Shown here: piece by piece, positions 6,364-23,107 of the stretch
Position numbering within the stretch: the stretch's first letter is position 1
Layout: every line of letters begins with the position of its first letter
NCBI GenBank assembly: GCA_947497945.1
Contig: CANMIP010000005.1
Location: 124,001-188,000 of the forward strand
Length of the DNA: 64,000 nt
Direction of reading: 5' to 3'
Origin: an uncultured Tropicimonas sp.
Lineage (GTDB): Bacteria > Pseudomonadota > Alphaproteobacteria > Rhodobacterales > Rhodobacteraceae
Position numbers and translations under genes: made by a program
Notes under the pieces: generated by a model
Told to the model about the DNA's origin: nothing
Seen by the model: the letters and a program-made list of their open reading frames with translations, nothing else
Database searches by the model: none

Positions 6364-6819
6364 TCAGGCCTTGTTGTATTTCGTGTCGAGTTTGTTGATC
6401 GCATCGACATTTCCCGCGGAGCGGCCAGCCTCGTCGAAACTCTCGACGAGATAAGTGTCGACGATCTTCTTGGCCAGTTCCAGACCGATGCAGCGCGCGC
6501 CGAGCGTGATGACTTGCGCGTTGTTGGAAAGCGCGGCGCGTTCGGCGGAGTAGCAATCATGCAGATGCGCGGCGCGGATGCCCGGCACCTTGTTGGCCGA
6601 GATGCAGACGCCGATGCCGGTGCCGCAGACGAGGATCGCCTTGTCGAAGCTGCCGTCCGCAACACCGCTGGCGACGCGGTCCGCCATATCGGCATAAAAG
6701 GCCTCAGCGCCGGCCGGCGTCTCGGAGGCCTCGGTCACGTCGTAGCGATCCTTGAGGTATTCGGCGAGATCGTGGGCCATGCCCTTGCCTGCGGAATCGC
6801 CGGCCACTGCGAGTTTCAT
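6364..6819 (-). CDS. RpiB/LacA-family sugar-phosphate isomerase, DerI/EryI-like
   Basis: Aldose-ketose isomerase of the RpiB/LacAB fold, 151 residues, start ATG 6819 behind AAGGAAAAG. The catalytic Cys65 lies in V-C-G-T-G-I-G, followed by [10 protein letters not shown]. The N-terminal motif reads G-D-S-A-G (Asp8, Ser9) instead of the S-D-H-A-G of ribose-5-phosphate isomerase, so the His that helps open the ribose ring is replaced. This pattern, and the tail [10 protein letters not shown], resemble what I recall of the D-erythrulose-4-phosphate isomerases of erythritol catabolism (DerI/EryI); that link is inference. It has its own upstream palindrome, separate from the transketolase operon that ends just before it. 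A product of D-erythrose 4-phosphate would feed the neighbouring transketolase. Confidence 0.82.
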
Positions 6820-6895
6820 CTCTTTTCCTTTCATCCTGCGCTCCAGGGTCTGGAGTTGGCCGGATCGTAACATGTGAGGTCCGGTTTCTCAACAA

Positions 6896-6916
6896 ATATC
6901 ACATCAGTTGTGATAT
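6896..6916. promoter_or_regulatory. Palindromic operator ATATCACA-N5-TGTGATAT upstream of rpiB-like gene
   Basis: Two perfectly complementary 8-base arms separated by TCAGT, AT-rich in a GC-rich genome, about 80 bases upstream of the rpiB-like start. On the minus strand a weak promoter can be read just downstream (TTGTTG, 17-base spacer, TGTTAC). The geometry suggests a dimeric regulator site; which regulator binds is unknown. Confidence 0.6.
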
Positions 6917-6952
6917 AATGCCTCGATGAATTGTTACGTTTCTGGTGAGACA

Positions 6953-6984
6953 AACAGGTCCGCATTCGGGAATGCGGGCCTGTT
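6953..6984 (-). terminator. Terminator after the AroE-like gene
   Basis: Long inverted repeat, AACAGG-T-CCGCATT against AATGCGG-G-CCTGTT with a CGGG loop and one mismatch, 27 bases after the AroE-like stop. On the minus strand it is followed by TGTCT, so it probably ends the transketolase operon before the rpiB-like gene. Confidence 0.65.
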
Positions 6985-7011
6985 CTGAGAGGTCGGATCG
7001 CGCGTTTCGGC

Positions 7012-7818
7012 CTAGTCCGCAGTACGGAAGAAGCGCGCCATCTCGATGAACTGGTAGTCGAGCATGGAGCCGCCCTGCAGCGTGCGGTGGCCACGAGCCT
7101 CGGCTTCCTTGAGCAGCTTCGTCACCGGCGGCATCTGCACGACTTCGGCCACGACCGTGTCTCCTTCGAGCAGGTTCGGGTCGATCGGCATCGGGTCGTC
7201 CTCATGCATGCCGAGAGGCGTGGCGTTGACCACGACGTCGTAGCCCGCCGGATTCGGACCCGCGCCCTCGACGGCGATCGGCAGTTCTGGCACGGCGCCA
7301 CGCAGGCGGTCTGCCAGGGCTTCGGCACGGTCTGTGTCGAGATCCGAGATGGTCAGGCGGCTGATGCCGGATTGCGCCAGCGTGGCCGCGATGGCCGAGC
7401 CCGCGCCGCCGGTGCCGACGACGAGGAAGGACTTGCCTTCCGGCGAAAAGACCTGGTCCGCCAGCCCGTTGACGAAGCCCATGCCGTCAAGGTTGGTGCC
7501 GGTCCAGCTGCCGTCTTCCTCGGGGCGGATGATGTTGGTGGCGCCGGCCAGCGCGGCGGTTGGCATCACCTCGTCGACGAGATCCATGAAGGAGACCTTG
7601 TGCGGGATGGTGATGACCATGCCGCCGAAATTCGACAGCGCCTTGAAGCCTTCCATCGCCTTGGCGGCATTTTCCGGCTTCACATGGACGGGGATGAAGA
7701 CCGCGTCCATCTCTTCCTTCTCGAAATACTCGTTGAAGAGGAACTGAACACGCACGTGGTCGATGGGGTGGGCCACGACACCGAAGACTTTCGTCGTGCC
7801 GCTGATGACGGGTTTCAT
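7012..7818 (-). CDS. Shikimate/quinate dehydrogenase-family protein with altered substrate site
   Basis: AroE-fold NAD(P)-dependent dehydrogenase of 268 residues (start ATG 7818). The catalytic Lys74 in I-T-I-P-H-K and the Asn95 and Asp111 (G-T-N-L-D-G) of the family are intact, as is the nucleotide-binding V-G-T-G-G-A-G-S-A. The substrate-carboxylate motif H-S-x-S-P of true shikimate dehydrogenases is replaced by D-H-V-R-V: both serines that hold the shikimate carboxylate are valine. It is therefore unlikely to be the biosynthetic aroE and probably acts on a different polyol or keto acid. It is the last gene of the tkt-hyi-glxR operon, separated from glxR by 107 bases, and is followed by a terminator. 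Substrate is unknown; a polyhydroxy acid of the same pathway is the natural guess. Confidence 0.82.
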   Translation of the reverse strand: MKPVISGTTKVFGVVAHPIDHVRVQFLFNEYFEKEEMDAVFIPVHVKPENAAKAMEGFKALSNFGGMVITIPHKVSFMDLVDEVMPTAALAGATNIIRPEEDGSWTGTNLDGMGFVNGLADQVFSPEGKSFLVVGTGGAGSAIAATLAQSGISRLTISDLDTDRAEALADRLRGAVPELPIAVEGAGPNPAGYDVVVNATPLGMHEDDPMPIDPNLLEGDTVVAEVVQMPPVTKLLKEAEARGHRTLQGGSMLDYQFIEMARFFRTAD

Positions 7819-7925: not shown

Positions 7926-8807
7926 TTACTTGCGGATTTCGACCTTGGCGAGCTTCTCGTAATGCTTCGCCACGGCGCAATGGTCGGAGGCGCCATCGCC
8001 GTCGAGCTTGAGCGCCTGCATGACTTCCATGATGCCGGCGGTCAGCGGAACGGAGACGTTCAGCTCATGCGCGGTGTCCAGCGCGTTCTGCAGGTCCTTG
8101 ATATGCAGCTCGATGCGGAAACCGGGGTTGAAATTGCCGTCCAGGATCATCGGGACCTTGGCGTTCATCACGGTCGAGCCGGCCAGCCCGCCCTTGATCG
8201 CGTCGAACACGGCTTCCGGATTCACGCCAGCCTTGGTCGAGAGCGTGAAGGCTTCCGAGACGGCGGCGATGTTGAGCGCAACGATGATCTGGTTGGCCAG
8301 TTTGGTGACGTTGCCGGCGCCGATATCGCCGACGCGGACGACCGAGCCCGCCATCACGTCGAGCACATCCTTGACCTTGTCGAAAGCGGCTTCGTCACCG
8401 CCGACCATGACCGCGAGCGTGCCGTCGATGGCCTTGGGCTCGCCGCCCGAGACCGGGGCGTCCAGCAGGATGACATCCTTGGCCTTGGCGGCTTCGCAGA
8501 TCTCCTGCGAGGCGGCAGGGGCGATGGAACTCATATCGACAAGAATGGTGCCGGGCTTGGCGCCGTCGAGCACGCCGTCCTCTCCCATGACCACTTCTTT
8601 CACATGCGGCGAGTTGGGCAGCATGGTGATGATCAGCTCGGCCTTGGAGGCAACATCCGCGCTGGACGCACCAGCTTCTGCGCCAAGCGCGACGAGGTCG
8701 TCCATGGGCGCGAACTTGTCGAAGACGACCAGCGAGTGGCCGGCGGCGATGAGGTTCTTGGCCATGGGGCGCCCCATGATGCCGAGGCCGATAAATCCGA
8801 TTTTCAT
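7926..8807 (-). CDS. glxR: 2-hydroxy-3-oxopropionate (tartronate semialdehyde) reductase
   Basis: Beta-hydroxyacid dehydrogenase, 293 residues, reducing tartronate semialdehyde to glycerate with NAD(P)H in the glyoxylate/glycerate pathway. It carries the dinucleotide fold F-I-G-L-G-I-M-G-R-P-M-A at the N-terminus, the substrate motif D-A-P-V-S-G-G near residue 120, and the catalytic Lys in G-A-G-N-V-T-K-L-A-N-Q. Start ATG 8807 has GGAG upstream. It is directly behind hydroxypyruvate isomerase, the pairing (hyi-glxR) known from glyoxylate carboligase operons, although no carboligase gene is in the window. A paralogue of the same superfamily, ltnD, lies at 16532. Related 3-hydroxyisobutyrate dehydrogenases are the main alternative. 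Confidence 0.87.
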   Translation of the reverse strand: MKIGFIGLGIMGRPMAKNLIAAGHSLVVFDKFAPMDDLVALGAEAGASSADVASKAELIITMLPNSPHVKEVVMGEDGVLDGAKPGTILVDMSSIAPAASQEICEAAKAKDVILLDAPVSGGEPKAIDGTLAVMVGGDEAAFDKVKDVLDVMAGSVVRVGDIGAGNVTKLANQIIVALNIAAVSEAFTLSTKAGVNPEAVFDAIKGGLAGSTVMNAKVPMILDGNFNPGFRIELHIKDLQNALDTAHELNVSVPLTAGIMEVMQALKLDGDGASDHCAVAKHYEKLAKVEIRK

Positions 8808-8864
8808 GTTTATCTCCAGTCTGTTGCCGGGCAGGACACCCTGTGCCCCGCCCATGGTCTCGTG

Positions 8865-9632
8865 TCAGCCGTTGAAGCGCTTCATCCAGCCGAAGCCCTC
8901 TTGGGGCACATACTCGCAGCCGACCCAGCCGTCGTAGCCAAGTTCGTCGATATAGGGCAGCAGGAAGTCATAGTTGATCTCGCCTGTGCCCGGTTCGTGG
9001 CGGCCGGGATTGTCGGCGAGCTGGATGTGGCCGATGCGGTCGAAATTGGCCTTGATCGTGGCGGCCAGTTCCCCCTCCATCCGCTGCATGTGGTAGATAT
9101 CGTATTGGAACAGCAGGTTGTCGGAGCCGACCTTGTCCAGCACCGCGAGCGTCTGGGTTGTGTTGGTGAGGAAGAAGCCGGGGATGTCGAAGGTGTTGAT
9201 CGCCTCGGCGACCAGCAGGATGCCCTCCTTCTTCAGCTCGTTGGCGGCGAAGGCCAGATTCGAGACCAGCGCTTCCTCGGCCTTCTCCGGGGCCACGCCC
9301 TCGGGCAGCTTTCCGGCAAGGCAGTTGATTTTCGGGCAGTTCAGCGCCTTCGCCATGGCGATGCCGCGTCCGACACTGTCCTGGAACTCGCCCACGCGGT
9401 TCGGGTCGCAGGCAATGCCCCGGTCGCCACCGGCCCAATCGCCGGCGGGAAGATTGTGCAGCGCCTGTTGCAGGCCGGCAGCCTGCAGCTTCTCGGCCAG
9501 TTGCTCCGGCTCGAAGCCTTCGGGGAAGAGGTTCTCGACCGCCTTGAACCCGGCATCCGCCGCGGCCTGGTACTTGTCGAGGAAGTCCAGCTCCGGGAAG
9601 AGCATGGAGATATTTGCAGCAAGTTTTACCAT
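8865..9632 (-). CDS. hyi: Hydroxypyruvate isomerase
   Basis: TIM-barrel (AP-endonuclease 2 / xylose isomerase-like) metal-dependent isomerase, 255 residues, interconverting hydroxypyruvate and tartronate semialdehyde. It matches the classical Hyi pattern closely: L-H-N-L-P-A-G-D-W near residue 58, the Glu in A-E-A-I-N-T-F-D-I-P-G-F, Q-Y-D-I-Y-H-M-Q-R-M-E-G and D-N-P-G-R-H-E-P-G-T-G-E-I-N-Y. The start ATG 9632 lies 12 bases after the transketolase stop, so they share an operon. Hydroxypyruvate is also a ketol donor for transketolase, which may explain the pairing. A second, more distant member of this family is otnI at 19436. Confidence 0.88.
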   Translation of the reverse strand: MVKLAANISMLFPELDFLDKYQAAADAGFKAVENLFPEGFEPEQLAEKLQAAGLQQALHNLPAGDWAGGDRGIACDPNRVGEFQDSVGRGIAMAKALNCPKINCLAGKLPEGVAPEKAEEALVSNLAFAANELKKEGILLVAEAINTFDIPGFFLTNTTQTLAVLDKVGSDNLLFQYDIYHMQRMEGELAATIKANFDRIGHIQLADNPGRHEPGTGEINYDFLLPYIDELGYDGWVGCEYVPQEGFGWMKRFNG

Positions 9633-9644: not shown

Positions 9645-11657
9645 TTACGCTTTGGTTTCCGCCAGCCGCGCTTCGACAGCAGCGGCAACGGCCTTGGGTG
9701 TGATACCGAAATGCTCCATCAATTCGTCCGGCATACCGGCGGCGCCGAAGCCGTCGAGGCCGATGGCGAGCCCGTCGGGGCCGATGTACTTGTGCCAGCC
9801 GAACTTGGTCGCGGCTTCGACGGAGACCCGCAACGCCGTGCCAAGGATCTCGGCTTTGTAGGCCTCCTCCTGTGCGTCGAAGAGCTCTAGGCAGGGCATG
9901 GAGACCACGCGGGTGGGCACGCCCTTGGCTTCGAGCAACTCCCGCGCGCCGAGGGCGACGGAGACTTCCGAGCCGGTGGACAGCAGCGTGACCTGCGCTT
10001 GCGCCGAGGCTTCGGCGAAGACATAGGCGCCGCGGCGGCAGAGGTTTTCCTCCGAGTAGCCGGAGCGGACAGCCGGGACCTTTTCGCGGGTCAGCATCAA
10101 GGCAACCGGCATGTCCTTCGCCTCCAGTGCCAGCTCCCAGCACTCGGCCACTTCGGCGGCGTCGGCGGGGCGAAGCGAGAGCATGTTCGGCGTCGCCCGG
10201 AAAGTCACGAAATGCTCGACCGGCTGGTGGGTCGGGCCGTCCGGGCCTTGGGTGATCGTGTCATGCGTCATGATATAGAGCACCTTCTGCTCCATAAGCG
10301 CCGAGAGACGGATCGCGGGGCGGCAGTAGTCCGAGAAGCACATGAAAGTGGCGCAGAAGGGCAGGAAGCCCTTGTGCAGCGCGATCCCGTTGGTGATCGC
10401 GGCCATGGAATGCTCGCGGATGCCGAAATGGATGTAGCGGCCGGCGAAATTGTCCTTCGAGATCGGGTCGACCGTGTCCGGGCGGCTCAGGTTCGAGGGT
10501 GTCAGGTCTGCCGAGCCACCGATCATCGCCGGGATGGCCGGGATCAGCTTGCTCATCACCTTCTGCGAGGATTGCCGGGTCGGCTCGTCCTGCGGGGTCT
10601 TGGCAACGTCTTTCTTGATCGCGTCGATGATGTCATGCCAGCCCTCGGGCAGCTCGCCGGCAATGGCAGCCATCATCTCGTCGCCCTTGTCGGAAGCGTC
10701 TAGGCGCTCTTTCCAAGCGGCGTAATCGGAGCTGCTGCGCGCGCCGGCGAGACGCCAGTCGGTCAGGATATCGTCCGGGATTTCGAAGGGCGCGTAATCC
10801 CACTCATAGGAGGCACGCGCTGCGGCAGCTTCGTCATCGGTGGGCGGCTGGCCATGGGCGGCCGCTGTTCCTTCCTTGACCGGCATTCCGAGGCCGATCT
10901 TGGTCTTGCAGGCGATGATCGAGGGCGTGCCGGTTGTCTTCGCCTTGGCGATGGCGGCGGCGACGGCTTCCGGGTCATGGCCGTCGACGGCCTGCCAGTC
11001 CCAACCGGCGGCCTCAAACCGGGCCTGCTGGTTCTCGGAGGTGGCGAGGCTGGTCGGGCCGTCGATGGAGATGCCGTTGTCATCGAAGAGGACGATCAGC
11101 TTGTTAAGCCCCCAATGGCCAGCGAGCGCTGTGGCTTCGTAGGAGATGCCTTCCATCAGGCAGCCATCGCCGACCAGCGCATAGGTGTAGTGATCGACAA
11201 GATCGGCGCCGTAGCGCTCCTGCTGCATGCGCTCGGCCAGCGCCATGCCGACCGCCATGCCGATGCCTTGCCCAAGCGGGCCGGTGGTGGCTTCGACGCC
11301 GATATCGAGCGCAACTTCCGGGTGCCCCATGGCGCGGGAGCCGAGGCGGCGGAAGGTCTTGATGTCATCGAGGGTCATCGCCTCGTAGCCCGTCAGGTAC
11401 CCCAGCGAATACATCAGCATGGAACCGTGGCCTGCGGAGAGCACGAAGCGGTCGCGGTCAGCCCAGTCGGGGGTCTTCGGGTCGTATTTCAGGAACTGCG
11501 TGAACAGGACCGTGGCCATGTCGGCCGCGCCCAGAGGCAGGCCCGGATGCCCGGTCTGAATCTTGTTGATCGCATCGACCGATAACGCACGAATCGCATT
11601 CGCCATGCGCTTGAAGCGCGGTCCGGTGAAGGATTGGGGGGAAGATGAAACGTTCAT
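9645..11657 (-). CDS. tkt: Transketolase
   Basis: Full-length thiamine-diphosphate transketolase, 670 residues, moving two-carbon ketol groups between sugar phosphates. Seen in order are the substrate-facing H-P-G-L-P-L-G-A-A-D, the G-P-L-G-Q-G loop, the diphosphate motif G-D-G-C-L-M-E-G, the pyrimidine-domain G-I-R-E-H-S-M-A-A and the G-P-D-G-P-T-H-Q-P loop. I chose ATG 11657, which has GCGAGG five bases upstream; the ATG at 11675 lacks a ribosome site. The chosen ATG overlaps the stop of a 62-codon upstream ORF (TGATG). It heads an operon with hyi, glxR and the AroE-like gene. Being placed in a catabolic operon with its own regulator, it is probably a specialised paralogue rather than the housekeeping enzyme, but the window cannot prove that. 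Confidence 0.92.
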   Translation of the reverse strand: MNVSSSPQSFTGPRFKRMANAIRALSVDAINKIQTGHPGLPLGAADMATVLFTQFLKYDPKTPDWADRDRFVLSAGHGSMLMYSLGYLTGYEAMTLDDIKTFRRLGSRAMGHPEVALDIGVEATTGPLGQGIGMAVGMALAERMQQERYGADLVDHYTYALVGDGCLMEGISYEATALAGHWGLNKLIVLFDDNGISIDGPTSLATSENQQARFEAAGWDWQAVDGHDPEAVAAAIAKAKTTGTPSIIACKTKIGLGMPVKEGTAAAHGQPPTDDEAAAARASYEWDYAPFEIPDDILTDWRLAGARSSSDYAAWKERLDASDKGDEMMAAIAGELPEGWHDIIDAIKKDVAKTPQDEPTRQSSQKVMSKLIPAIPAMIGGSADLTPSNLSRPDTVDPISKDNFAGRYIHFGIREHSMAAITNGIALHKGFLPFCATFMCFSDYCRPAIRLSALMEQKVLYIMTHDTITQGPDGPTHQPVEHFVTFRATPNMLSLRPADAAEVAECWELALEAKDMPVALMLTREKVPAVRSGYSEENLCRRGAYVFAEASAQAQVTLLSTGSEVSVALGARELLEAKGVPTRVVSMPCLELFDAQEEAYKAEILGTALRVSVEAATKFGWHKYIGPDGLAIGLDGFGAAGMPDELMEHFGITPKAVAAAVEARLAETKA

Positions 11658-11845
11658 CACAGCCTCGCTTTCCATGTCTTGGAGACAGGTATGAGGGGAG
11701 AGGGGTCGCGGCCGGTCTCCCGGATCTCTGGTGTTTCGGGCCCGTTGCCACGGGGCGGTCGGGGCGCGTGTCGGAGGCAGGGTCCGACGCCCGTCAGGCG
11801 CGCCGCGCGGGTCGCGGCAGCCGCTGAAACAGGGCGTCTCGTCAT
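11657..11845 (-). CDS. Possible 62-residue leader peptide coupled to transketolase
   Basis: Small ORF opening at ATG 11845 with an excellent ribosome site (GGAGG six bases away) and ending in a TGA that overlaps the tkt ATG as TGATG. The peptide is rich in Arg, Pro and Ala and has no recognisable domain or signal. The good ribosome site and exact stop-start overlap argue that ribosomes translate it and reinitiate at tkt, either as a real small protein or as a regulatory leader. Against it are the lack of any family and the ease with which GC-rich DNA stays open. Confidence 0.4.
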   Translation of the reverse strand: MTRRPVSAAAATRAARLTGVGPCLRHAPRPPRGNGPETPEIRETGRDPSPLIPVSKTWKARL

Positions 11846-11884
11846 GACCTTCCTCCCAGGGGACCGGTAGCTCCGGTCCAGTCC

Positions 11885-11908
11885 GACAGCCCTCCGGGGA
11901 GGGCTGTC
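11885..11908. repeat. Perfect inverted repeat in the tkt/GntR divergent spacer
   Basis: GACAGCCCTCC and GGAGGGCTGTC (11-base arms, 2-base loop) lie about 40 bases upstream of the leader-peptide start on the minus strand. There is no T-run on either side. It could be a hairpin in the 5' leader of the tkt transcript or an operator. Confidence 0.5.
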
Positions 11909-11932
11909 ATGCCGCCGCAAGCCTCCATTGCA

Positions 11933-11945
11933 ATGCGGTCCGCAT
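11933..11945. promoter_or_regulatory. Candidate operator ATGCGG-T-CCGCAT between tkt and GntR
   Basis: Perfect 6-1-6 palindrome within TTGCAATGCGG...; a related element, TTGCAAGCGCAATGCG, follows about 40 bases downstream. Both sit between the divergent tkt operon and the GntR gene and are candidate autoregulatory sites. Confidence 0.4.
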
Positions 11946-12174
11946 GTAAGGTACGGTGAAGACATTCGATTGCAAGCGCAATGCGACAAAGAGCGGCGTC
12001 CGTGCCGAATCCGGTCTGGTTCCGGAGCCCGCCCGGGAGGTTCGCGTTGCGGCGCGCACGGTCGAGACGGAAGAAGGATTGAAGGAGCGTTCGCGCAACT
12101 CTATGCAGGCGGCCAAGGAAGCGTCGCGACGGGTTTGCACGGCATGCGCTGCTTCAAACAAGCTGGAGACCACG

Positions 12175-12846
12175 TTGCTCAACCTGTCCCTGACCCGCCC
12201 GAACACCCTTGTTCACACCGTGACGGAGCGTTTGCGGGAAGCGATCGTGACGGCCGAGGTCAAGCTCGGGGAACCTGTCTCGGAGGAGAAGCTTGCCGCG
12301 GCCTTCGGGGTGAGCCGTACGCCGGTGCGCGAGGCGCTGAACCTGCTGCAATTGCAGGGACTGGTCGAAATCGCGCCACAGCGGGGCAGCTTCGTGTTTC
12401 GCCCGACTCAGGAAGACATCGCGGATCTGTGCGAATATCGCATCTCGATGGAGATGACGGTGATTCCGCTCTGTGCAAAGAACGATCACCCGGCGACGCT
12501 TGCCGCGCTGAAGGCCTGCCTGAAGAAGATGGAAACCGCGCTGGCGGAGGATGATGGCCTGGCCTATGCGACGCTGGATGACGAGTTGCACCAGCTCTTC
12601 TTCCGACATTGCGGCAACAAGTATTTCCAGGACGCCTATGCCCTGATCGCGGGCCGGATCTCGGCGCTTCGCAACAACCTGACCAAGGATTACCGCGCCG
12701 ATCACACCGTCTCGATGGAAGAGCACCGGCAGATTGTGCAGCTCTTCGCCGCCCGGGAGTTTGACGGCATCGGTACGGTCCTTCATGGCCATATCGGCCG
12801 GACCGAAGAAAACTTTATGCGCGCTCTGGAGAATGGCGTCTTCTGA
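12175..12846 (+). CDS. GntR-family regulator with FCD ligand domain
   Basis: Transcription factor with an N-terminal winged helix-turn-helix (E-R-L-R-E-A-I-V, then F-G-V-S-R-T-P-V-R-E-A-L-N) and a C-terminal all-helical FCD domain that binds small carboxylates through a metal site (E-x-R plus His residues, including D-E-L-H-Q-L-F). Starting at TTG 12175, behind GGAG, gives 223 residues, the normal family length; an in-frame ATG at 12103 would add an unrelated Cys/Ser-rich 24 residues, and the frame is open to 11956. It is divergent from the tkt operon and points toward the aldehyde dehydrogenase gene, so it probably controls both, with a sugar-acid intermediate as ligand. Confidence 0.85.
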   Translation: MLNLSLTRPNTLVHTVTERLREAIVTAEVKLGEPVSEEKLAAAFGVSRTPVREALNLLQLQGLVEIAPQRGSFVFRPTQEDIADLCEYRISMEMTVIPLCAKNDHPATLAALKACLKKMETALAEDDGLAYATLDDELHQLFFRHCGNKYFQDAYALIAGRISALRNNLTKDYRADHTVSMEEHRQIVQLFAAREFDGIGTVLHGHIGRTEENFMRALENGVF

Positions 12847-13042: not shown

Positions 13043-14548
13043 ATGCTCATAGGCAAGCACCTGATTGCAGGCGACTGGGTCGCCGGCGCCACGTCATTCG
13101 AAAACATGCCCACCGAGGGGGCGCCGGACAGTTTTGCCAAGGGGGAGCCCGCGCATGTGGCCGCAGCCGCCGAGGCGGCGGAAGAAGCCTTCTGGTCCTA
13201 TGGCTTCTCCACCCGCGCCACCCGCGCCGCCTTTCTGCGCAGGATCGCCGAGGAGATCGACGCCCGTGGCGCGGAGATCACCGCGATGGGCATGAAGGAA
13301 ACCGGCCTGCCCGAGGCGCGGCTCAATGGCGAGCGCGGCCGCACGGTCGGCCAGCTGCGCCTCTTCGCCGAGCATATCGAGGCGGGCGACTATCTTGACC
13401 GCCGCCATGACGAGGCCCTGCCCGACCGCACCCCGCTGCCGCGCCCGGACCTGAAGATGGTCCAGCGCCCGATCGGCCCGGTCGCCGTCTTCGGCGCCTC
13501 CAACTTCCCGCTGGCTTTCTCGACCGCGGGCGGCGACACGGCGGCTGCGCTGGCGGCGGGCTGCCCGGTCGTGGTCAAGGGCCACTCGGCCCATCCCGGC
13601 ACCTCCGATCTCGTCGCCCAGGCGGTGGATGCGGCGGTGAAAGCCTGCGACCTGCATCCCGGCGTGTTCAGCCAGATCCAGGGCGGCAACCGCGCCGTCG
13701 GCACCGCGCTGGTCCAGCATCCCTTCATCAAGGCGGTCGGCTTCACCGGCTCGCTCGCCGGCGGGCGGGCGATGTTCGACCTCTGCGCCGCGCGGCCCGA
13801 GCCGATCCCCTTCTTCGGCGAGCTCGGCTCGGTGAACCCGATGTTCATCCTCGACAGCGCACTGGCCGCCCGCGGCGCCGAGATCGCCGCCGGCTGGGCG
13901 GGCTCGCTCACCATGGGCGCGGGCCAGTTCTGCACCAATCCCGGGGTCGCCGTGCTGGTTGCCGGCCCCGAAGCCGAGGCCTTCGAGGCAGCCGCCAGGG
14001 AGGCGCTCGCCGCCATCGGTGGCCAGACCATGCTGACCGACGGCATCGCCAGCGCCTATCACGAGGGCGCGGACCGGGTCGGCGGGGCCAAAAGCGTGCG
14101 CTCGGTGCTCTCCACCGACTGCAGCGGCCGGTCGGCCACGCCCTTCCTCTTCGCGACCTACGCACAGGATTTCCTGGCCAATCACGACCTCGCCGAGGAG
14201 GTCTTCGGCCCGCTCGGCCTGATCGTGATCGCGAGGGACGAGGCGGAACGGCTCGAGGTTGCCCGCTCCCTCGTCGGACAGCTCACCTGCACGATCCACA
14301 TGGACGACGCCGACACCGCCTCCGCCCGGGCGCTGATGCCGATCCTCGAGCGCAAGGCGGGCCGGCTGCTGATCAACGGTTTCCCGACCGGCGTCGAGGT
14401 CTCCGACACGATGGTGCATGGCGGCCCCTACCCGGCCTCGACCAATTTCGGCGCGACCTCGGTGGGCACGCTCTCCATCCGCCGCTTCCTGCGCCCGGTC
14501 TGCTACCAGAACTTCCCCGAAGGGCTCTTGCCCGCCGATCTGGGGTGA
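13043..14548 (+). CDS. Alpha-ketoglutaric semialdehyde dehydrogenase (2,5-dioxovalerate dehydrogenase)
   Basis: NAD(P)-dependent aldehyde dehydrogenase of 501 residues, of the type that oxidises 2,5-dioxopentanoate to 2-oxoglutarate at the end of pentonate or hexarate degradation. The F-G-A-S-N-F-P-L-A-F-S-T-A-G-G-D-T segment, Glu260 in G-E-L-G-S-V-N-P and Cys297 in G-Q-F-C-T-N-P-G are characteristic of this subfamily, which differs from ordinary aldehyde dehydrogenases in these loops. The ATG at 13043 begins the conserved G-K-H-L-I-A-G-D-W-V; no strong ribosome site is visible. Its GC content, especially in third positions, looks higher than its neighbours'. It would pair with the IlvD/Edd dehydratase at 21326 in a Weimberg-type route, but the intervening 2-keto-3-deoxy acid dehydratase is not in the window. 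Confidence 0.88.
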   Translation: MLIGKHLIAGDWVAGATSFENMPTEGAPDSFAKGEPAHVAAAAEAAEEAFWSYGFSTRATRAAFLRRIAEEIDARGAEITAMGMKETGLPEARLNGERGRTVGQLRLFAEHIEAGDYLDRRHDEALPDRTPLPRPDLKMVQRPIGPVAVFGASNFPLAFSTAGGDTAAALAAGCPVVVKGHSAHPGTSDLVAQAVDAAVKACDLHPGVFSQIQGGNRAVGTALVQHPFIKAVGFTGSLAGGRAMFDLCAARPEPIPFFGELGSVNPMFILDSALAARGAEIAAGWAGSLTMGAGQFCTNPGVAVLVAGPEAEAFEAAAREALAAIGGQTMLTDGIASAYHEGADRVGGAKSVRSVLSTDCSGRSATPFLFATYAQDFLANHDLAEEVFGPLGLIVIARDEAERLEVARSLVGQLTCTIHMDDADTASARALMPILERKAGRLLINGFPTGVEVSDTMVHGGPYPASTNFGATSVGTLSIRRFLRPVCYQNFPEGLLPADLG

Positions 14549-16531: not shown

Positions 16532-17437
16532 ATGTCCGAAAAGCTGAACACCTGTGTTATCGGTCTTGGTTCGATTGGCTGGGGCGCTGGCGTCTCGCTG
16601 TTGCGCGAAGGGTTCCCGACAACGGCAGTGGATATCCGCTCCGAGGCGCTGGAGCGTTTCGTAGCCGAGGGTGGCGCAAAGGCCGACACGCCCGCCGAAG
16701 GGGCCGCGAGCGCGGATCTGGTCCTGGTCTTCGTGGTCAATGCCGCGCAGACCGAGACGGTGCTCTTTGGCGAAAACGGCGCTGTCGCGGCCGCGCGCCC
16801 CGGCACGACCTTCCTCATCGCCGTGACCATGCCGCCCTCGGCCATGGCCGATATCTGCGCGCGGCTGGAAGCCGCCGGCATGGTGGCAATCGACGCGCCG
16901 ACCTCCGGCGGATCGATCAAGGCCGGCAATGGCGAGACGACGCTGATGGCCTCCGGACCGGACGCGGCTTTCGAGGGCGTGATGCCGGCGCTTGAAGCCT
17001 TCACCGGACGGATCTACCGGCTCGGCGATACCTGCGGGCAGGGCAGCCGGGTGAAGATGATCAACCAGCTCCTCGCCGGCGTGCATATCGCCGCCATGGC
17101 TGAGGCGATGACGCTTGGCGCCAAGCTCGATGTCGATCTTGGCACGCTCTACGAGGTGATCACTGGCTCGGCCGGCAATTCCTGGATGTTCGAGAACCGG
17201 GGGCCGCATGTGGTCAATGGCGACTACACTGCGCATTCGGCCGTTGATATCTTCGTCAAGGATCTCGGAATCGTCACTTCCGAGGCCGGCGACGGCTGCC
17301 CGACGCCGCTTTCCGAGACTGCGCTGGCGTTGTTCAAGGAGGCGAGCGCGGCCGGTCTGGGCCGTCAGGACGATGCTGCCGTGGCCAAGATCCTGGCTGC
17401 GAAAGCAGGTGTGAAACTGCCGGGCGTCGAGGCCTGA
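16532..17437 (+). CDS. ltnD: L-threonate dehydrogenase (LtnD type)
   Basis: Beta-hydroxyacid dehydrogenase of 301 residues, expected to oxidise L-threonate (or D-erythronate) to the 2-oxo-tetronate with NAD. It has the nucleotide motif V-I-G-L-G-S-I-G-W-G-A-G, the substrate motif D-A-P-T-S-G-G-S and the catalytic Lys175 in G-S-R-V-K-M-I-N-Q. The G-S-I-G-W-G-A motif and its place as the first gene before otnK-otnC-otnI separate it from glxR-type reductases. ATG 16532 has an exceptional ribosome site (GGAGGAGGAGAGG) inside the LacI-controlled leader. The product would be isomerised by otnI, phosphorylated by otnK and decarboxylated by otnC. Confidence 0.9.
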   Translation: MSEKLNTCVIGLGSIGWGAGVSLLREGFPTTAVDIRSEALERFVAEGGAKADTPAEGAASADLVLVFVVNAAQTETVLFGENGAVAAARPGTTFLIAVTMPPSAMADICARLEAAGMVAIDAPTSGGSIKAGNGETTLMASGPDAAFEGVMPALEAFTGRIYRLGDTCGQGSRVKMINQLLAGVHIAAMAEAMTLGAKLDVDLGTLYEVITGSAGNSWMFENRGPHVVNGDYTAHSAVDIFVKDLGIVTSEAGDGCPTPLSETALALFKEASAAGLGRQDDAAVAKILAAKAGVKLPGVEA

Positions 17438-17503
17438 TCCAACATTGCCCGGTCGGCCAGGCGCTGGCCGGGACATTCAGAACTGTTCGAAGGGAAGAGG
17501 AAA

Positions 17504-18781
17504 ATGGGCGTCGTTCTTGGATGCATCGCAGACGATTTTACCGGGGCAACGGATCTTGCCGGGCTGCTTGCCCGCTCCGGTGTGAAGGTCTCGCTGAGGA
17601 TGGGGGTGCCGGAGGAGGCGCCCGAAGAGGCGGATGTCGCCGCTTTCGAGGTGATCGCGCTGAAATGCCGGACAGCGCCGGTCGCGGAGGCCGTGGCCGA
17701 GACCCGCGCGGCGCTGGACTGGCTCAGGCGCGCCGGTGCCGAGCGGTTCTTCTGGAAATACTGCTCGACCTTCGACAGCACCGCTGAGGGGAATATCGGC
17801 CCCGTCGCCGAGGCGCTGATGGAAGAACTGGGCACCAATCAGACCATCTACTGTCCGGCCTTCCCGGAAAATGGTCGCTCCATCTTCATGGGCAACCTCT
17901 TCGTCGGCGAACAGCCGATTGCCGAGAGCCCGATGAAGGATCATCCGTTGACCCCGATGCGCGACAGCAACCTGATGCGGCTGCTGGATCCGCAGGTGAA
18001 GGGCAAGACCGGGCTCGCCAACCGCCTGACTGTGGCGCGCGGACCCGAAGCGCTCAAGGCGCGCATGGCCGAACTTGCGGCAGTGGGCGTGAACCACGTC
18101 GTCGTCGATGCGGTGGCCGACGACGACCTCCGCATTATCGCCGAGGCCTGCTATGAGATGCCGCTCCTGACGGGCGGCAGCGCTGTCGCCATGCCGCTGC
18201 CCGAGCTGTACTTGAAACAAGGCACGATCACCGAGGCCGCCAAGCGCGCCTCCGCGCCGGATGTTGGCAAGGGCGCGATTGTTCTTTCCGGCAGCTGCTC
18301 GGCCCGGACCCGCGAACAGGTGGCCGACTTCCTGCCCAAGGCGGCGTCCTACCGGCTGGACCCGCTGGAGCTGTCCGCTAACGGGGCGCAAGCCGCGCGC
18401 GACTGGCTGGCCGCGCAAGAACCCGGACAGACCTGCATCGTCTATGCGACGGCCGAGCCGGAAGACGTTGCCCGCGTTCAGGCCGAGCTTGGCGTTGCCG
18501 AGGCTGGCGAACTTGTCGAAGCCGCGCTCGCACAGCTCGCCACGGATGCGCTGGAGCAGGGCGCGCGGCGCTTCGTGATCGCCGGCGGCGAGACCTCCGG
18601 CGCCGTCACCAAGGCGCTGGGCGTCACGGCTATGGAAATTGGCGAGGAAATCGCGCCGGGCGTTCCCTGGACCTGGTGCGAAAGCAAGGGCGAGCGCATC
18701 GCCATGACGCTGAAATCCGGCAATTTCGGCGGCGTCGGCTTCTTCTCCGAAGCGCTGGCCAAGCTGGACGCCATGTCATGA
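17504..18781 (+). CDS. otnK: 3-oxo-tetronate kinase (four-carbon acid sugar kinase, DUF1537)
   Basis: ATP-dependent kinase of 425 residues phosphorylating 3-oxo-tetronate at C4. It shows the family's two domains: an N-terminal substrate domain starting I-A-D-D-F-T-G-A-T-D-L-A-G, and a C-terminal nucleotide domain with V-L-S-G-S-C-S, G-G-E-T-S-G-A-V and K-S-G-N-F-G-G near the end. Start ATG 17504 sits behind GAAGAGGAAA, 66 bases after ltnD. Its stop overlaps otnC as ATGA. The gene order ltnD-otnK-otnC-otnI is the described threonate/erythronate catabolic operon. Confidence 0.93.
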   Translation: MGVVLGCIADDFTGATDLAGLLARSGVKVSLRMGVPEEAPEEADVAAFEVIALKCRTAPVAEAVAETRAALDWLRRAGAERFFWKYCSTFDSTAEGNIGPVAEALMEELGTNQTIYCPAFPENGRSIFMGNLFVGEQPIAESPMKDHPLTPMRDSNLMRLLDPQVKGKTGLANRLTVARGPEALKARMAELAAVGVNHVVVDAVADDDLRIIAEACYEMPLLTGGSAVAMPLPELYLKQGTITEAAKRASAPDVGKGAIVLSGSCSARTREQVADFLPKAASYRLDPLELSANGAQAARDWLAAQEPGQTCIVYATAEPEDVARVQAELGVAEAGELVEAALAQLATDALEQGARRFVIAGGETSGAVTKALGVTAMEIGEEIAPGVPWTWCESKGERIAMTLKSGNFGGVGFFSEALAKLDAMS

Positions 18782-19434
18782 CCGCCGAAACCCGCCTACG
18801 CGAGCAGGTCTGCCTGCTGGCCAAATCGCTCTATGACCGGGGGCTGACCCCCGGCGCGAGCGGCAATATCTCGGCGCGCCTTGAGGATGGCCGGCTTCTC
18901 GTGACCCCCACGGGAAGCTGCTTCGGACGGCTCGATCCGGCGCGGCTGGCCGTGTTGGACGCAGAGGGTCACGCCCATGTCGAGGGCGACAAGCCGACCA
19001 AGGAGGTGGCGCTCCACGCCGCCTTCTACGAGACCCGCCCCGCCCAGACCGGCGCGGTGGTCCACCTGCATTCCACGCATTCGGTCGCGCTCTCCCTGCT
19101 GCCCGAGACCGACCCCGACGACATGCTGCCGCCCCTGACGGCCTACGGCATCATGAAGCTCGGCAAGGTGAAGCTGCTGCCCTATTTCATGCCGGGCGAC
19201 CCGGCGATGGGCGACGCGATCCGTGGGTTGGCGGGAAAGCGCAGTGCCGTGGTGCTGGCCAATCACGGACCTGTCGTTGCCGGCAAGGATCTCGAAGCGG
19301 CCTGCTACGCGATGGAAGACCTCGAAGAGACCGCCAGGCTCGCCATGCTGACCCGTGGCCTCAACCCGCAAATGCTGAACGCGGCCCAGATCCAGGGCCT
19401 CGTGACCAAGTTCAACGTCGAATGGGACGACTGA
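18778..19434 (+). CDS. otnC: 3-oxo-tetronate 4-phosphate decarboxylase (class II aldolase fold)
   Basis: Zinc-dependent class II aldolase/adducin-family protein of 218 residues which decarboxylates 3-oxo-tetronate 4-phosphate to dihydroxyacetone phosphate. Visible are the phosphate-binding G-A-S-G-N-I-S-A-R near residue 22, the catalytic Glu in K-E-V-A-L-H, the zinc histidines in H-L-H-S-T-H, and a third metal His in L-A-N-H-G-P-V-V. The ATG overlaps the otnK stop by four bases. The following otnI begins one base after this stop, so the three are tightly coupled. Confidence 0.92.
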   Translation: MTAETRLREQVCLLAKSLYDRGLTPGASGNISARLEDGRLLVTPTGSCFGRLDPARLAVLDAEGHAHVEGDKPTKEVALHAAFYETRPAQTGAVVHLHSTHSVALSLLPETDPDDMLPPLTAYGIMKLGKVKLLPYFMPGDPAMGDAIRGLAGKRSAVVLANHGPVVAGKDLEAACYAMEDLEETARLAMLTRGLNPQMLNAAQIQGLVTKFNVEWDD

Positions 19435-19435
19435 T

Positions 19436-20191
19436 ATGACCCGATTTTCCGCCAATCTCGGATTCCTCTGGAACGAGCTTTCGCTGCCAGACGCGATCCG
19501 CGCCGCCAAGTCGGCCGGTTTCGACGCTGTGGAGTGCCACTGGCCCTACGAGACACCCGCCGCCGATGTGGCCGCGGCCCTGCAAGAGACCGGCCTGACC
19601 ATGCTCGGGCTCAACACGACGCGCGGCAATCCCGGCGAGAACGGTCTCACGGCGCTGCCCGGGCGCGACGTCGAAGCGCGCGCGGCCATCGATCAGTCGA
19701 TTGCCTATGCAAAGGCGATCGGCACGCCGAATATCCATGTCATGGCTGGCTTTGCGACCGGTGACGCGGCGCATGCCACTTTCGTCGAAAATCTCCGCTA
19801 TGCCTGCGACACGGCCGCCGGGGACAACATCACGATCCTGATCGAGCCGTTGAATCGCTATGACGCGCCGGGCTATTTCCTCGGAACGAGCGCGCAGGCG
19901 GCCGAGATCATCGCCGAGGTGGATCGGCCCAACCTCAAGCTCATGTTCGACTGCTATCACCTGCAAATCATGGAAGGCGATCTGACCCGCCTGCTGGTCG
20001 ATCGGCTGCCGATCACCGGCCATGTCCAGTTCGCCTCCGTGCCCGAGCGCACCGAGCCGGACTGTGGCGAGATCAACTACACGCATATCTTCGCCCATCT
20101 CGAGAGCCTCGGCTACGACGCCCCGCTTGGCGCCGAATACAAACCCCGGGGAACGACGGAGGAAGGGCTTTCCTGGATGAGCAGCCTGTAA
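19436..20191 (+). CDS. otnI: 2-oxo-tetronate isomerase
   Basis: TIM-barrel isomerase of the hydroxypyruvate isomerase family, 251 residues, converting 2-oxo-tetronate to 3-oxo-tetronate for otnK. It has the F-S-A-N-L-G-F-L-W start, the metal Glu in I-E-P-L-N-R-Y-D-A-P-G-Y-F, F-D-C-Y-H-L-Q-I-M-E-G-D and the late C-G-E-I-N-Y. Where Hyi has L-H-N-L-P-A-G-D-W, this protein has L-N-T-T-R-G-N, the substitution expected for OtnI. It is the last gene of the operon and converges on a GntR gene with a hairpin between them. Confidence 0.9.
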   Translation: MTRFSANLGFLWNELSLPDAIRAAKSAGFDAVECHWPYETPAADVAAALQETGLTMLGLNTTRGNPGENGLTALPGRDVEARAAIDQSIAYAKAIGTPNIHVMAGFATGDAAHATFVENLRYACDTAAGDNITILIEPLNRYDAPGYFLGTSAQAAEIIAEVDRPNLKLMFDCYHLQIMEGDLTRLLVDRLPITGHVQFASVPERTEPDCGEINYTHIFAHLESLGYDAPLGAEYKPRGTTEEGLSWMSSL

Positions 20192-20238: not shown

Positions 20239-20976
20239 TTACTTCATGCCGGCGCGCAGCAGCACCATGATCGAGCTGTCGAAATGCTCCGACATGGCGT
20301 TTTCCGCGGCTTCCGGATCCTTCGCGACAACCGCCTGTGCCACCCGTTCGTGGCAGCCGATATTGTCGAGCCAGGCCTCGTAATTCCCCCGCGCCCGCCA
20401 GCCGATATCCCAGGTTTGCCGGGTTATGACGCGGAAACTGTCCACGAAGATCGAATAGAGCGGGTTGCCCGAGGCGCGGGCAATGATCTCGTGAAACAGG
20501 ATGTCCAGTTCCATCACCCGTGCCGACTTCCCGGCCTTGACCGCCGCATACATGCCCTCGATCACCGTCAGCAACTCCCGCGCATCGGCTTCGCTGCGAT
20601 GAAGCGCGGCCAGGCTGACCGCGCGCATCTCGATCGTGCGCCGCGCCTCCTGGATCTGCACGACCGAAACCTGTTCGGTATGCACGATATGATCGATGAT
20701 CGCGCTCAGTGCCTCGGCTGTCGGGCCGGCCACGCGCGCGCGGCGGCCGTTTCCGACCTCGATGATTCGAAGTGCGGCCAAGCCGCGCATCGCTTCCCGC
20801 GCCACGGTCCGGGACACGCCGAACTCCGAGGAAATCGCCGCTTCCGCCGGAATCACGTCCCCGGGCTTTAACCCGTTGTCCTGAATAAGCTTTCGTATCC
20901 CCAGCATCGTCTGTTCCACGAGGCTGGTGGGTTTTTCGGCATCGAAGGGCACAAATTGTATGACAGGATCTTGCAT
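20239..20976 (-). CDS. FadR-subfamily GntR regulator (FCD domain)
   Basis: DNA-binding regulator of 245 residues. The winged helix includes G-D-V-I-P-A-E-A-A-I-S-S-E-F-G-V-S and R-T-V-A-R-E-A-M-R-G-L; the FCD sensor domain follows with E-A-R-R-T-I-E-M-R, D-I-L-F-H-E-I-I-A-R-A-S-G-N and a late H-F-D. It is divergent from the IlvD/Edd dehydratase across a 349-base spacer, and its own start overlaps an imperfect GTAT-N4-ATAC palindrome, so it probably represses itself and the dehydratase. The subfamily usually senses sugar acids or short carboxylates, which agrees with the neighbours. Confidence 0.88.
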   Translation of the reverse strand: MQDPVIQFVPFDAEKPTSLVEQTMLGIRKLIQDNGLKPGDVIPAEAAISSEFGVSRTVAREAMRGLAALRIIEVGNGRRARVAGPTAEALSAIIDHIVHTEQVSVVQIQEARRTIEMRAVSLAALHRSEADARELLTVIEGMYAAVKAGKSARVMELDILFHEIIARASGNPLYSIFVDSFRVITRQTWDIGWRARGNYEAWLDNIGCHERVAQAVVAKDPEAAENAMSEHFDSSIMVLLRAGMK

Positions 20977-20979
20977 TTG

Positions 20980-20991
20980 GTATTACTATAC
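20980..20991. promoter_or_regulatory. Candidate GntR operator GTAT-TACT-ATAC
   Basis: Short inverted repeat four bases upstream of the FadR-type GntR start, in an AT-rich promoter region. Its arms match the ends of GTATAC-type sites elsewhere in the window. The remainder of the 20977-21325 spacer contains only the SDR remnant described at 21144. Confidence 0.4.
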
Positions 20992-21143
20992 ACGTCAAAT
21001 CATCCTTCACAATATCGCATTGCTGTCATAACAAACCGGGAAGAGATGATCGATCGAGTCAGAACGCCCTACCGGGGCCGCACTCCGCCGGATTGTGCCG
21101 AGTTTGGCGGCCGCCGCTCGGAAACTTGAGGAGTACAGCGAGA

Positions 21144-21236
21144 ATGAGCACCGATCCGATCGATCTTTCCGGAAGGGCTGCCCTGATCGCCGGATCCTCG
21201 CGCTGCCCGGTTCGGGCCATGACCTCGGCGCTCTGA
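21144..21236 (+). pseudogene. N-terminal remnant of a short-chain dehydrogenase
   Basis: ATG 21144, preceded by GAGGAG, starts a 30-codon frame. Its first 20 residues read as a textbook SDR N-terminus (the [14 protein letters not shown] stretch, compared with D-L-S-G-R-V-A-L-I-T-G-S-S-R in intact genes). The glycine-rich loop that should follow is broken and the frame ends almost at once, although an R-A-M remnant is still visible. No later part of an SDR exists before the dehydratase start 90 bases on. It looks like a deleted sugar-dehydrogenase gene whose promoter region and ribosome site survive. Confidence 0.6.
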
Positions 21237-21325
21237 CATGGCGGCCCTCTCGCACCAACCCTCTTTCAACGAACTTGTCCGACGGTGTTTCGCCTCGGAC
21301 ATATCCACCGAACATGGAGAGTGAC

Positions 21326-23107
21326 ATGAAACTTCGTTCGCAGGCCTGGTTTGACGATCCTGAAGATCCGGGTTCAACCGCGATTTATGTCGAGCGGTAC
21401 CTGAATTACGGGCTCACCCGCGAAGAGCTGCAATCGGGCAAGCCGATCATCGGCATCGCACAGACCGGCAATGACCTCTCGCCCTGTAATCGCCACCATA
21501 TCGAGCTGGCCAAGCGGGTCCGTGAAGGCATCCGTTCGGCGGGCGGTATCTGCTTCGAGTTCCCGGTGCACCCGATCCAGGAAACCGGAAAGCGGCCCAC
21601 CGCGGCGCTCGACCGCAACCTCGCCTATCTCGGCCTCGTCGAGACACTCTACGGCTACCCGATCGACGGTGTCGTGCTGACCATCGGCTGCGACAAGACC
21701 ACCCCGGCGCTGCTCATGGCCGCCGCCACGGTCAATATCCCGTCCATCGCGCTGTCCGTCGGCCCGATGCTGAATGGCTGGCACAAGGGCAAGCGCGCCG
21801 GCTCCGGCGTCGTGATCTGGGACGGCCGCGAGATGCTCGCGCGCGGTGAGATCGATAACGAGGAATTCATGGAAATGGCAGCCAACAGCGCGCCGTCTGT
21901 CGGCTATTGCAACACGATGGGCACGGCCAGCACCATGAACAGCCTTGCCGAGGCACTCGGCATGCAGCTTCCCGGCGGCGCGTCTATCCCGGCCCCCTAT
22001 CGCGAACGCGGCCAGATCTCCTATCGCACCGGTGAACGGATCGTGGAGATGGTCAAGGAGGACCTCAAACCCTCCGACATCATGACCCGCGAAGCCTTCG
22101 AGAACGCCATCGTGGTGAACTCGGCCATCGGCGGTTCGACCAATGCGCCGATCCACCTGACGGCCATCGCCAGTCATCTCGGCTTGGAGCTGTGCAATGA
22201 CGACTGGCAGACGCTTGGCCACAAGATCCCGCTCCTGGCCAATGTGCAGCCGGCCGGCGAATATCTCTCCGAGGACTTCCACCTTGCCGGCGGCATTCCG
22301 GGTGTTGTCTCCGAACTGATGGGGGCGAACGCCCTGCCGCACCCGGGCGCCGTGACGGTGAGCGGCAAGTCCTTCTCCGAGATCTACGGCGACGCCGAGG
22401 TGACCAACCCCGAGGTTATCCGTCCCTTTGCCGATCCGTTGAAAGAGGCGGCCGGTTTCGTCAATCTCAAGGGCAATCTCTTCGACAGCGCGATCATGAA
22501 GACCTCGGTCATTTCCGAGGACTTCCGGGCGCGTTACCTGTCCAAGGACGGAGATCTCGATGCCTTCGAAGGCCGCGCGGTCGTGTTCGAAGGCCCTGAA
22601 GACTACCACGCTACCATCGAAGACCCGGCTCTGGAGATCGACGAGCACTGCATCCTCGTCATTCGAGGCACCGGCCCGATCGGCTATCCCGGCGGTGCCG
22701 AGGTGGTGAACATGCAGCCGCCCGCTGCCCTGCTCAAGCGTGGCATCGACGCGCTGCCCTGCATCGGAGACGGCCGTCAGTCCGGCACTTCCGGCTCGCC
22801 CTCGATCCTGAACGCGGCGCCGGAAGCGGCGGCGATGGGCGGGCTCGCGCTGGTGAAATCCGGCGACCGGCTGCGGATCGATCTAAAGGACGGGTCGGCC
22901 AATATCCTGGTCTCCGACGAGGAACTGGCGGCGCGCCGCAGCGCGCTCGAGGCCGAAGGCGGCTTTGCCTTCGCCGCGCACCAGACCCCCTGGCAGGAGA
23001 TCCAGCGCTCGATGGTCGACCAGTTCGACAAGGGCATGGTGCTGAAACCGGCGGTCAAATACCAGAAGATCGCTCAAACCAAGGGCTTGCCGCGCAACAG
23101 CCACTGA
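21326..23107 (+). CDS. IlvD/Edd-family sugar-acid dehydratase
   Basis: Iron-sulfur dehydratase of 593 residues, of the pentonate branch of the IlvD/Edd family (L-arabinonate or D-xylonate dehydratases), giving a 2-keto-3-deoxy sugar acid. Cluster cysteines are visible in [16 protein letters not shown] and [12 protein letters not shown], and the family's [13 protein letters not shown] loop is intact. ATG 21326 is preferred; ATG 21314 in the same frame adds four residues. It is divergent from the FadR-type regulator and ends at a strong terminator. With the ketoglutarate-semialdehyde dehydrogenase at 13043 it supplies two of the steps of a Weimberg-type pathway. Substrate stereochemistry cannot be read from sequence. 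Confidence 0.88.

Follow-up and report, generated by a model that had tools for sequence, protein, structure and literature searches.

What brings a transketolase, a hydroxypyruvate isomerase, a tartronate-semialdehyde reductase and a dehydrogenase resembling AroE (shikimate dehydrogenase) together in one operon? The question is raised by a 64,000-nucleotide stretch of the genome of an uncultured Tropicimonas sp. (assembly GCA_947497945.1, contig CANMIP010000005.1, positions 124,001 to 188,000; G000:C5:124001-188000 in our numbering), here called the window, in which tkt, hyi, glxR, aroE-like and an rpiB gene run head to tail on the minus strand. A first-pass annotation of window positions 6364-23107 had listed these genes with ltnD-otnK-otnC-otnI, an aldehyde dehydrogenase (ALDH), an IlvD/Edd dehydratase and three regulators, all of which are present, and had read them as one composite island. 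The conserved unit is smaller: gntR // tkt-hyi-glxR-aroE-like, which recurs in Aliiruegeria lutimaris and A. sabulilitoris, the closest named relatives of the window, whereas rpiB, otn and ilvD were not found with it in the stretches fetched. It is very probably a real, separately regulated acid-catabolic unit, present in this marine host and a few distant relatives. The explanation that we tentatively prefer is a sugar-acid module, in which the AroE-like enzyme would oxidise an acid and the transketolase (Tkt) would transfer the ketol of the resulting keto acid. The features of the unit are as follows.

7012..7818, minus strand: AroE-like dehydrogenase, without the shikimate-binding Ser-x-Ser
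7926..8807, minus strand: glxR/garR-type tartronate-semialdehyde reductase
8865..9632, minus strand: hyi, hydroxypyruvate isomerase
9645..11657, minus strand: tkt, transketolase whose cofactor- and phosphate-binding residues are canonical (alternative start 11675)
11658..11941, minus strand: long 5' leader from the operator motif to tkt, perhaps left by the loss of a TRAP importer
11942..11955, minus strand: CGTACCTTACATGC, core of a 20-nt conserved motif, putative operator of the module GntR
12163..12846, plus strand: gntR, regulator divergent from tkt (probable TTG start)
13043..14548, plus strand: aldehyde dehydrogenase behind gntR

The start codons used were 11657 (tkt), 8807 (glxR), 7818 (aroE-like), 6819 (rpiB), 12163 (gntR, the TTG) and 13043 (ALDH).

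To retrieve orthologous loci, the AroE-like protein was used as the probe because the remaining enzymes are common, so that its own occurrence in every fetched locus is by construction. A pattern scan over 84,980 genomes, which undercounts because exact short peptides are required, returned nine loci. Four of them encode AroE-like orthologues at 73-94% identity, namely A. lutimaris (L039; genome G297, taken as this species), A. sabulilitoris (L040), Roseospira visakhapatnamensis (L041; G682) and a Xanthobacteraceae metagenome-assembled genome (MAG; L042; G683), and the other five reach 31-53% over the matched segment. Independently of the probe, tkt and gntR occur together with the AroE-like gene in all five orthologous loci, window included. 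In four of the five, hyi and glxR fill the space between tkt and aroE-like, the Xanthobacteraceae unit being without them. Identities to the window copies, in the order L039 to L042, are 89, 90, 74 and 70% for Tkt, 94, 93, 76 and 73% for the AroE-like protein and 78, 78, 67 and 62% for GntR, with 90, 81 and 74% for Hyi in the three loci that encode it; Tkt (70-90%) and the AroE-like protein (73-94%) thus diverge in step. Orthologues of the AroE-like protein occur in two of nine whole genomes of the genus, in one of 295 sampled genomes of the family (all others among the matches listed were at ≤43% identity) and in one of 385 sampled genomes of the class, where the next best match had an E value of 2.1e-81 versus 3.8e-174. 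The co-location of five genes suggested earlier, rpiB among them, was seen in the host genome only; the four-gene set occurs in two of the nine genomes of the genus and, in addition, in those of A. sabulilitoris and Roseospira. Two of the five loci, those of Roseospira and the Xanthobacteraceae MAG, have genes for a TRAP importer, a transporter type that mostly imports acids, between gntR and tkt. The two TRAP binding proteins are 68% identical to each other; similarity to solved TRAP binding proteins was only modest and no ligand was inferred.

A conserved promoter motif accompanies the unit. The sequence CGTACCTTA[C/G]AT is found at the same place in the gntR spacer of all five module loci and, among the 125 loci scanned, is confined to them. 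Within the gntR-tkt (or gntR-dctP) spacers, the 12-mer CGTACCTTACAT appears in four of the five loci and CGTACCTTAGAT in the fifth, while both TRAP loci have a second copy of the motif (CGTACCTTAGGT) immediately ahead of tkt. We scanned with a 20-nt matrix built without the tested locus (without the whole genus for the Aliiruegeria loci), and the gntR-spacer site ranked first in all five loci; across the 64-kb window it scored 20.3 versus 7.9 for the next site. The second site ranked second in both TRAP loci, at 21.8 against a next-best 8.0 in the Xanthobacteraceae MAG and at only 9.6 against 4.7 in Roseospira. The best 12-mer common to the window, Roseospira and Xanthobacteraceae spacers has a total mismatch of 1, a value reached by none of 200 dinucleotide-preserving shuffles (best 2, reached twice). 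The exact 12-mer has a single match in the host genome and its reversed control has none, although this match is not significant alone, with ca. 0.7 expected for random sequence by our arithmetic; the weight for the motif lies in its conservation across genera and in the shuffle control. Its position and conservation suggest that the module GntR protein binds it. Motif scans gave no operator-like site at rpiB, ALDH, lacI, otn or ilvD within the window. A GGGAG-AAGGTCATGA stretch (GGGAGGAAGGTCATGA) in the leader (11658-11941 in the window) is conserved among the Aliiruegeria loci and lies at about the distance at which dctP starts in Roseospira; the leader is perhaps the scar of a lost importer.

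The enzymes of the operon are for the most part what their names imply. The window Tkt scores 748.6 bits with the NCBIfam model TIGR00232 (cut-off 682), and all 15 TktA residues compared (H26, H66, H100, D155, E160, N185, H261, R358, S385, E411, F434, H461, D469, H473 and R520) are kept in the five module Tkts. Eight further positions were compared, and two of them, 98 (P to M/A/Y) and 383 (A to T), are changed. The module Tkts make up a single clade (support 1.0) in a 12-sequence transketolase tree, which also holds two others from the host genome. The module Tkt is one of three full-length transketolases there (with two weaker matches in addition); the first-pass annotation had named a sole transketolase as refuting its proposal, and this does not apply. 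The neighbourhood of the host transketolase at C5:19797 offered no clue, and an unannotated Shinella record holds a Tkt match at 54.7% identity.

A separate transketolase clade (L037:8780-10780, L102:9707-11626 and L033:6361-8337; support 1.0) was seen in the same tree, with R358 of TktA changed to V/I, S385 to A/P and D469 to N. Its member in Roseospira lies near otnK-otnC and a Hyi/OtnI-like gene, and that in genome G024 adjoins an AroE-like gene and an ALDH; these enzymes may act on unphosphorylated substrates.

The window Hyi is just over the cut-off of its model (TIGR03234, 353.8 versus 353.45 bits; Roseospira 377.7, and A. lutimaris just under it at 344) and is 56% identical to E. coli Hyi versus 36% to E. 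coli OtnI/YgbM. The reductase passes both tartronate-semialdehyde-reductase models (TIGR01505, 408.7 versus 340.75; PRK11559, 483 versus 397). The Aliiruegeria enzyme is of the GarR type (67% to E. coli GarR versus 42% to GlxR) and the Roseospira enzyme of the GlxR type (65% to GlxR versus 42% to GarR); the reductase slot was thus filled twice, from two lineages. That tkt stands beside a true hyi and a true tartronate-semialdehyde reductase, as had been noticed at first sight, is a real and conserved arrangement; its partner, however, is the AroE-like gene rather than RpiB.

The AroE-like protein belongs to the shikimate dehydrogenase superfamily, which includes 5-ketofructose reductase, and like its members keeps the catalytic Lys/Asp. 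It retains T61, K65, N86, D102 and Q244 of E. coli AroE, and G135, G137 and G138 of the nucleotide-binding site are invariant in 21 aligned relatives. Unlike AroE, it has lost the shikimate carboxylate-binding Ser-x-Ser: V-R-V replaces S14-K-S16 in the four aligned module orthologues and in the fifth, and T101 and Y215 are changed as well. It is 25% identical to E. coli AroE, does not reach the best AroE equivalog model (168 versus a cut-off of 252), and has as solved relatives shikimate dehydrogenases and, third best, the 5-ketofructose reductase 7cok. A second AroE-family gene of the host genome, at C1:317019, may be the biosynthetic one. Plasmid records mostly label this branch shikimate dehydrogenase.

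The arrangement resembles gcl-hyi-glxR of E. coli K-12, in which a thiamine-diphosphate enzyme is likewise followed by hyi and a tartronate-semialdehyde reductase, but the first gene here is a transketolase instead of glyoxylate carboligase and an AroE-like gene is added. In a profile search, no glyoxylate carboligase (gcl) passed the cut-off in the host, A. lutimaris or Roseospira, the three searched of the four genomes whose module has hyi-glxR, the best host match being 320 bits versus 711; tartronate semialdehyde or hydroxypyruvate therefore needs another source there. Tkt as a stand-in that joins two glyoxylates was ruled out, as it is a canonical enzyme with an established mechanism. The window reductase is also close to that of the E. 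coli K-12 D-glucarate/galactarate genes garL-garR, in which the garL aldolase makes tartronate semialdehyde and GarR reduces it; here Tkt takes the place of the aldolase, and no garL match was found in L039 to L042.

The terminal ketol of a keto acid is what links an acid dehydrogenase to a transketolase. In the route that we tentatively favour, the AroE-like enzyme would oxidise a sugar acid, yielding a keto acid that ends in a ketol group (HOCH2-CO-), and Tkt would move this group to glyceraldehyde-3-phosphate, forming xylulose-5-phosphate and leaving a short aldehyde acid. The remainder depends on the donor: a 4-oxopentonate leaves tartronate semialdehyde, the substrate of both Hyi and GlxR, a 3-oxotetronate leaves glyoxylate, which is a substrate of neither, and hydroxypyruvate leaves CO2. 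A pentonate oxidised at C4 would fit best because its leftover aldehyde acid would be exactly tartronate semialdehyde, and the substrate of the AroE-like enzyme is perhaps such an acid. By our own Fischer-projection derivation, D-arabinonate and L-xylonate would both yield a single 4-oxo acid; counted from its opposite end, this acid would be D-threo as in D-xylulose, with a carboxylate at C5; the D-xylulose configuration at the ketol end is a requirement of transketolase. GlxR would reduce tartronate semialdehyde to D-glycerate, and Hyi would convert some of it to hydroxypyruvate, which would serve Tkt as another ketol donor, with release of CO2. Three of the four genomes searched (not Roseospira) encode a glycerate kinase domain of the MOFRL type, to which the D-glycerate could pass. 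In its full form, with D-arabinonate or L-xylonate oxidised at C4 by an AroE-fold enzyme, cut by Tkt into xylulose-5-phosphate and tartronate semialdehyde, the hydroxypyruvate isomer re-feeding Tkt and neither kinase nor dehydratase acting on the pentonate on its way into the pentose-phosphate pathway, the scheme is rather doubtful.

Bacterial pentonate routes, to our knowledge, employ a dehydratase followed by an aldolase or an oxidation. The proposal, if true, would amount to a kinase-free and dehydratase-free route with transketolase as the carbon-carbon cutting enzyme, and would assign a function to members of the AroE superfamily whose branch is poorly assigned. A literature search on the module or its chemistry found no description by title, most subscription papers being outside its coverage. 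In the literature, 4-keto-D-arabonate and 4-keto-D-pentonate are named, mostly for acetic acid bacteria. The nearest precedent is the sulfo-transketolase pathway (SqwGH, SqwI). There, a sulfonated ketose without a phosphate group is cut by a catabolic transketolase, with xylulose-5-phosphate as a possible product (PMC9594981). By analogy, the proposed route, with its catabolic transketolase on a non-phosphorylated acidic ketose, would be a carboxylate counterpart, although in the sulfonate pathway the proposed isomerase (SqwI) is of the RpiB family, while here the partner is AroE-like and the conserved unit has no such isomerase.

Several points weigh against this proposal, and uncertainty about the substrate is one of them. 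All phosphate-binding residues are present in Tkt, which therefore shows no sign of a donor that is an unphosphorylated carboxylate. The window operon does not include an importer, and the best match in the host genome to DctP of Roseospira (L041:2945-3973) reaches 34%, which is not a close homologue. Relatives of the AroE-like protein at 35-47% identity occur in very mixed contexts, and other roles exist for some of them, for example linked to beta-keto acid cleavage enzymes (BKACE). Of the four genomes searched, glyoxylate carboligase is over the cut-off only in the Xanthobacteraceae MAG, the one whose module lacks hyi-glxR; since no hyi, glxR or garR match was found within 17 kb around that gcl, a reductase in this genome is unproven. 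Finally, in 20 other places that encode Hyi in the class sample (5 assessed by coordinates, 11 by fetched stretches, 4 left out), two are hyi-glxR pairs without a recognised C-C enzyme (G317 and G610) and eight have neither such an enzyme nor glxR, relative to the reference proteins used.

The same survey placed a tartronate-semialdehyde-forming C-C enzyme next to hyi in six of the 20 places (gcl in five, garL in one); such an enzyme beside hyi is thus common but not the rule. In genome G645 (L115:7339-11648) an IlvD-family dehydratase, garL, hyi and glxR stand together, a second way to supply tartronate semialdehyde to hyi-glxR. Among the 385 alphaproteobacterial genomes of the sample, Hyi is over the cut-off in 12 and gcl in 8. 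That Hyi without gcl would be unusual proved a weak argument, since five of the 12 Hyi genomes, host included, lack gcl.

For the 30 loci with AroE-like relatives, 97 of 176 neighbouring open reading frames, picked by hand, were scanned as one set and gave SDR (8), ABC transporter (7), BKACE (5), DctM (5), GMC (5) and ALDH (4) families. This mix points to no single substrate, and the relatives were dropped as a substrate guide. The BKACE genes adjoining relatives at L062:7419-8354 and L064:9487-10425 pass the 3,5-dioxohexanoate:acetyl-CoA acetone transferase model.

The strongest rival holds that hydroxypyruvate is the only donor. The AroE-like enzyme would make it directly (e.g., from L-glycerate) or via a keto acid that decarboxylates spontaneously (e.g., from tartrate), Tkt would use it with glyceraldehyde-3-phosphate to give xylulose-5-phosphate and CO2, and hyi-glxR would be a side branch to D-glycerate. 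Hydroxypyruvate is an established ketol donor of transketolase, and Tkt here is canonical; the set of TRAP importer, Tkt and AroE-like enzyme of the Xanthobacteraceae MAG would be complete without hyi-glxR, and other genomes do have hyi-glxR with no recognised C-C enzyme alongside. With hyi-glxR present, however, the route to D-glycerate would be complete without Tkt, which is yet kept in all five loci, and we know of no AroE-fold glycerate or tartrate dehydrogenase. We consider this explanation possible, though less likely than not, and nearly as likely as the preferred one because it needs no unusual donor. Under it, Tkt would serve as a separately regulated sink dedicated to hydroxypyruvate. 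On either reading, the importers of the orthologous loci, and the regulator together with its conserved motif, offer a direct way to the substrate.

A C4 version of the sugar-acid proposal, in which the AroE-like enzyme would be a tetronate dehydrogenase and Tkt would cleave 3-oxotetronate to glyoxylate, in parallel to the nearby threonate and erythronate genes, is improbable. D-erythronate and L-threonate loci flank the module in the host, and in genome G175 (L034:5404-10431) a relative of the AroE-like protein (37% identical) directly precedes otnK-otnC-otnI, with no ltnD found at that locus, where it would be expected. This arrangement, which also counts in favour of the preferred route, is a single case, given the mixed contexts described above. 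The stretches fetched around the other four modules yielded no otn genes, and the glyoxylate produced would meet no glyoxylate carboligase in the host genome and would leave hyi and glxR unexplained. At the G175 locus a TctA-type transporter gene lies directly upstream of the AroE-like gene.

Less probable still is the route first suggested for this locus, in which hyi, fed from D-glycerate by GlxR in reverse, supplies hydroxypyruvate to Tkt and an RpiB/DerI-like isomerase takes up the C4 product. Its first half is possible, as hydroxypyruvate can feed transketolase, and in the window rpiB does follow aroE-like directly on the same strand. The part given to RpiB is not supported: the stretches fetched for the other four loci showed no rpiB next to the operon, the window gene has no operator-like site, and in A. 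lutimaris its orthologue (93%) lies ca. 28 kb away on the same contig, between a transketolase and a triose-phosphate isomerase gene, near a gene that reads as DeoR-type. On this comparison RpiB was rejected as a part of the module, and the route leaves the AroE-like partner without a role. A single C3-C4 island with all genes of 6364-23107 acting together has physical closeness in one genome in its favour and is very improbable, as its parts are scattered in A. lutimaris and the operator motif within the window is at the tkt operon only.

The remaining genes of the region were judged to be separate from the module.

6364..6819, minus strand: RpiB-family gene, resembling D-erythrulose-4-phosphate isomerase, adjacent to the module but judged outside it (alternative start 6873)
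15378..16367, minus strand: LacI-type regulator, divergent from the threonate operon, separate unit
16532..20191, plus strand: ltnD-otnK-otnC-otnI, L-threonate operon, separate unit
20239..20976, minus strand: another regulator of the GntR family, transcribed divergently from the IlvD-family gene, separate unit
21326..23107, plus strand: IlvD/Edd-family dehydratase (PRK13017 subfamily, 1011.5 bits)

The loci of A. lutimaris and A. sabulilitoris, compared over ca. 10 kb on each side (ca. 20 kb each), contained no rpiB, ltnD, otn or ilvD match. The region is best described as a row of separate units, of which two or more serve C4 acids, and not as one pathway. LtnD (391.9, cut-off 350), OtnK (546.9, cut-off 350) and OtnC (293.2, cut-off 250) pass their NCBIfam models and OtnI falls short (294 versus 325); the A. 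lutimaris orthologues (82-88%) are on a contig other than that of the module. The IlvD/Edd dehydratase reaches 509 with the L-arabinonate dehydratase model, against a cut-off of 882. The ALDH accompanies the module in the three Aliiruegeria loci only, behind gntR. It had been labelled a ketoglutarate-semialdehyde dehydrogenase, a name that its score with AlphKGSA_gudD (82 versus 770 bits) does not bear out; all 25 models listed of the 36 matching NCBIfam ALDH models are far under their cut-offs, and the nearest solved structure, 3v4c, is very close (755 bits) and named only "Aldehyde dehydrogenase (NADP+)."

RpiB falls just short of the D-erythrulose-4-phosphate isomerase (DerI/EryI) model NF051858 (229.9 versus 240). 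Its A. lutimaris orthologue adjoins triose-phosphate isomerase (L126:9551-11196), and the next gene reads as DeoR-type by sequence, with no NCBIfam profile matched. The host orthologues of these two genes are ca. 13 to 14 kb to the left of rpiB, ca. 7 kb outside the window, a separation that suggests a rearrangement. The deoR-tpi-rpiB layout is that of erythritol-cluster sets, and the neighbours of the A. lutimaris orthologue would fit such a set. The genes eryR, eryH and eryI are named in a published account (PMC10190533). At the left end of the window, TRAP genes at 61-2497 continue leftwards with dctP and an orthologue (91%) of the A. lutimaris D-erythronate dehydrogenase, which passes its model (354.8 versus 325), so by gene content this stretch and its extension read as a D-erythronate locus. 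Both this set and its A. lutimaris counterpart (L126:13209-17947) also include a further gene, a TIM barrel by our reading, and a GntR-family regulator.

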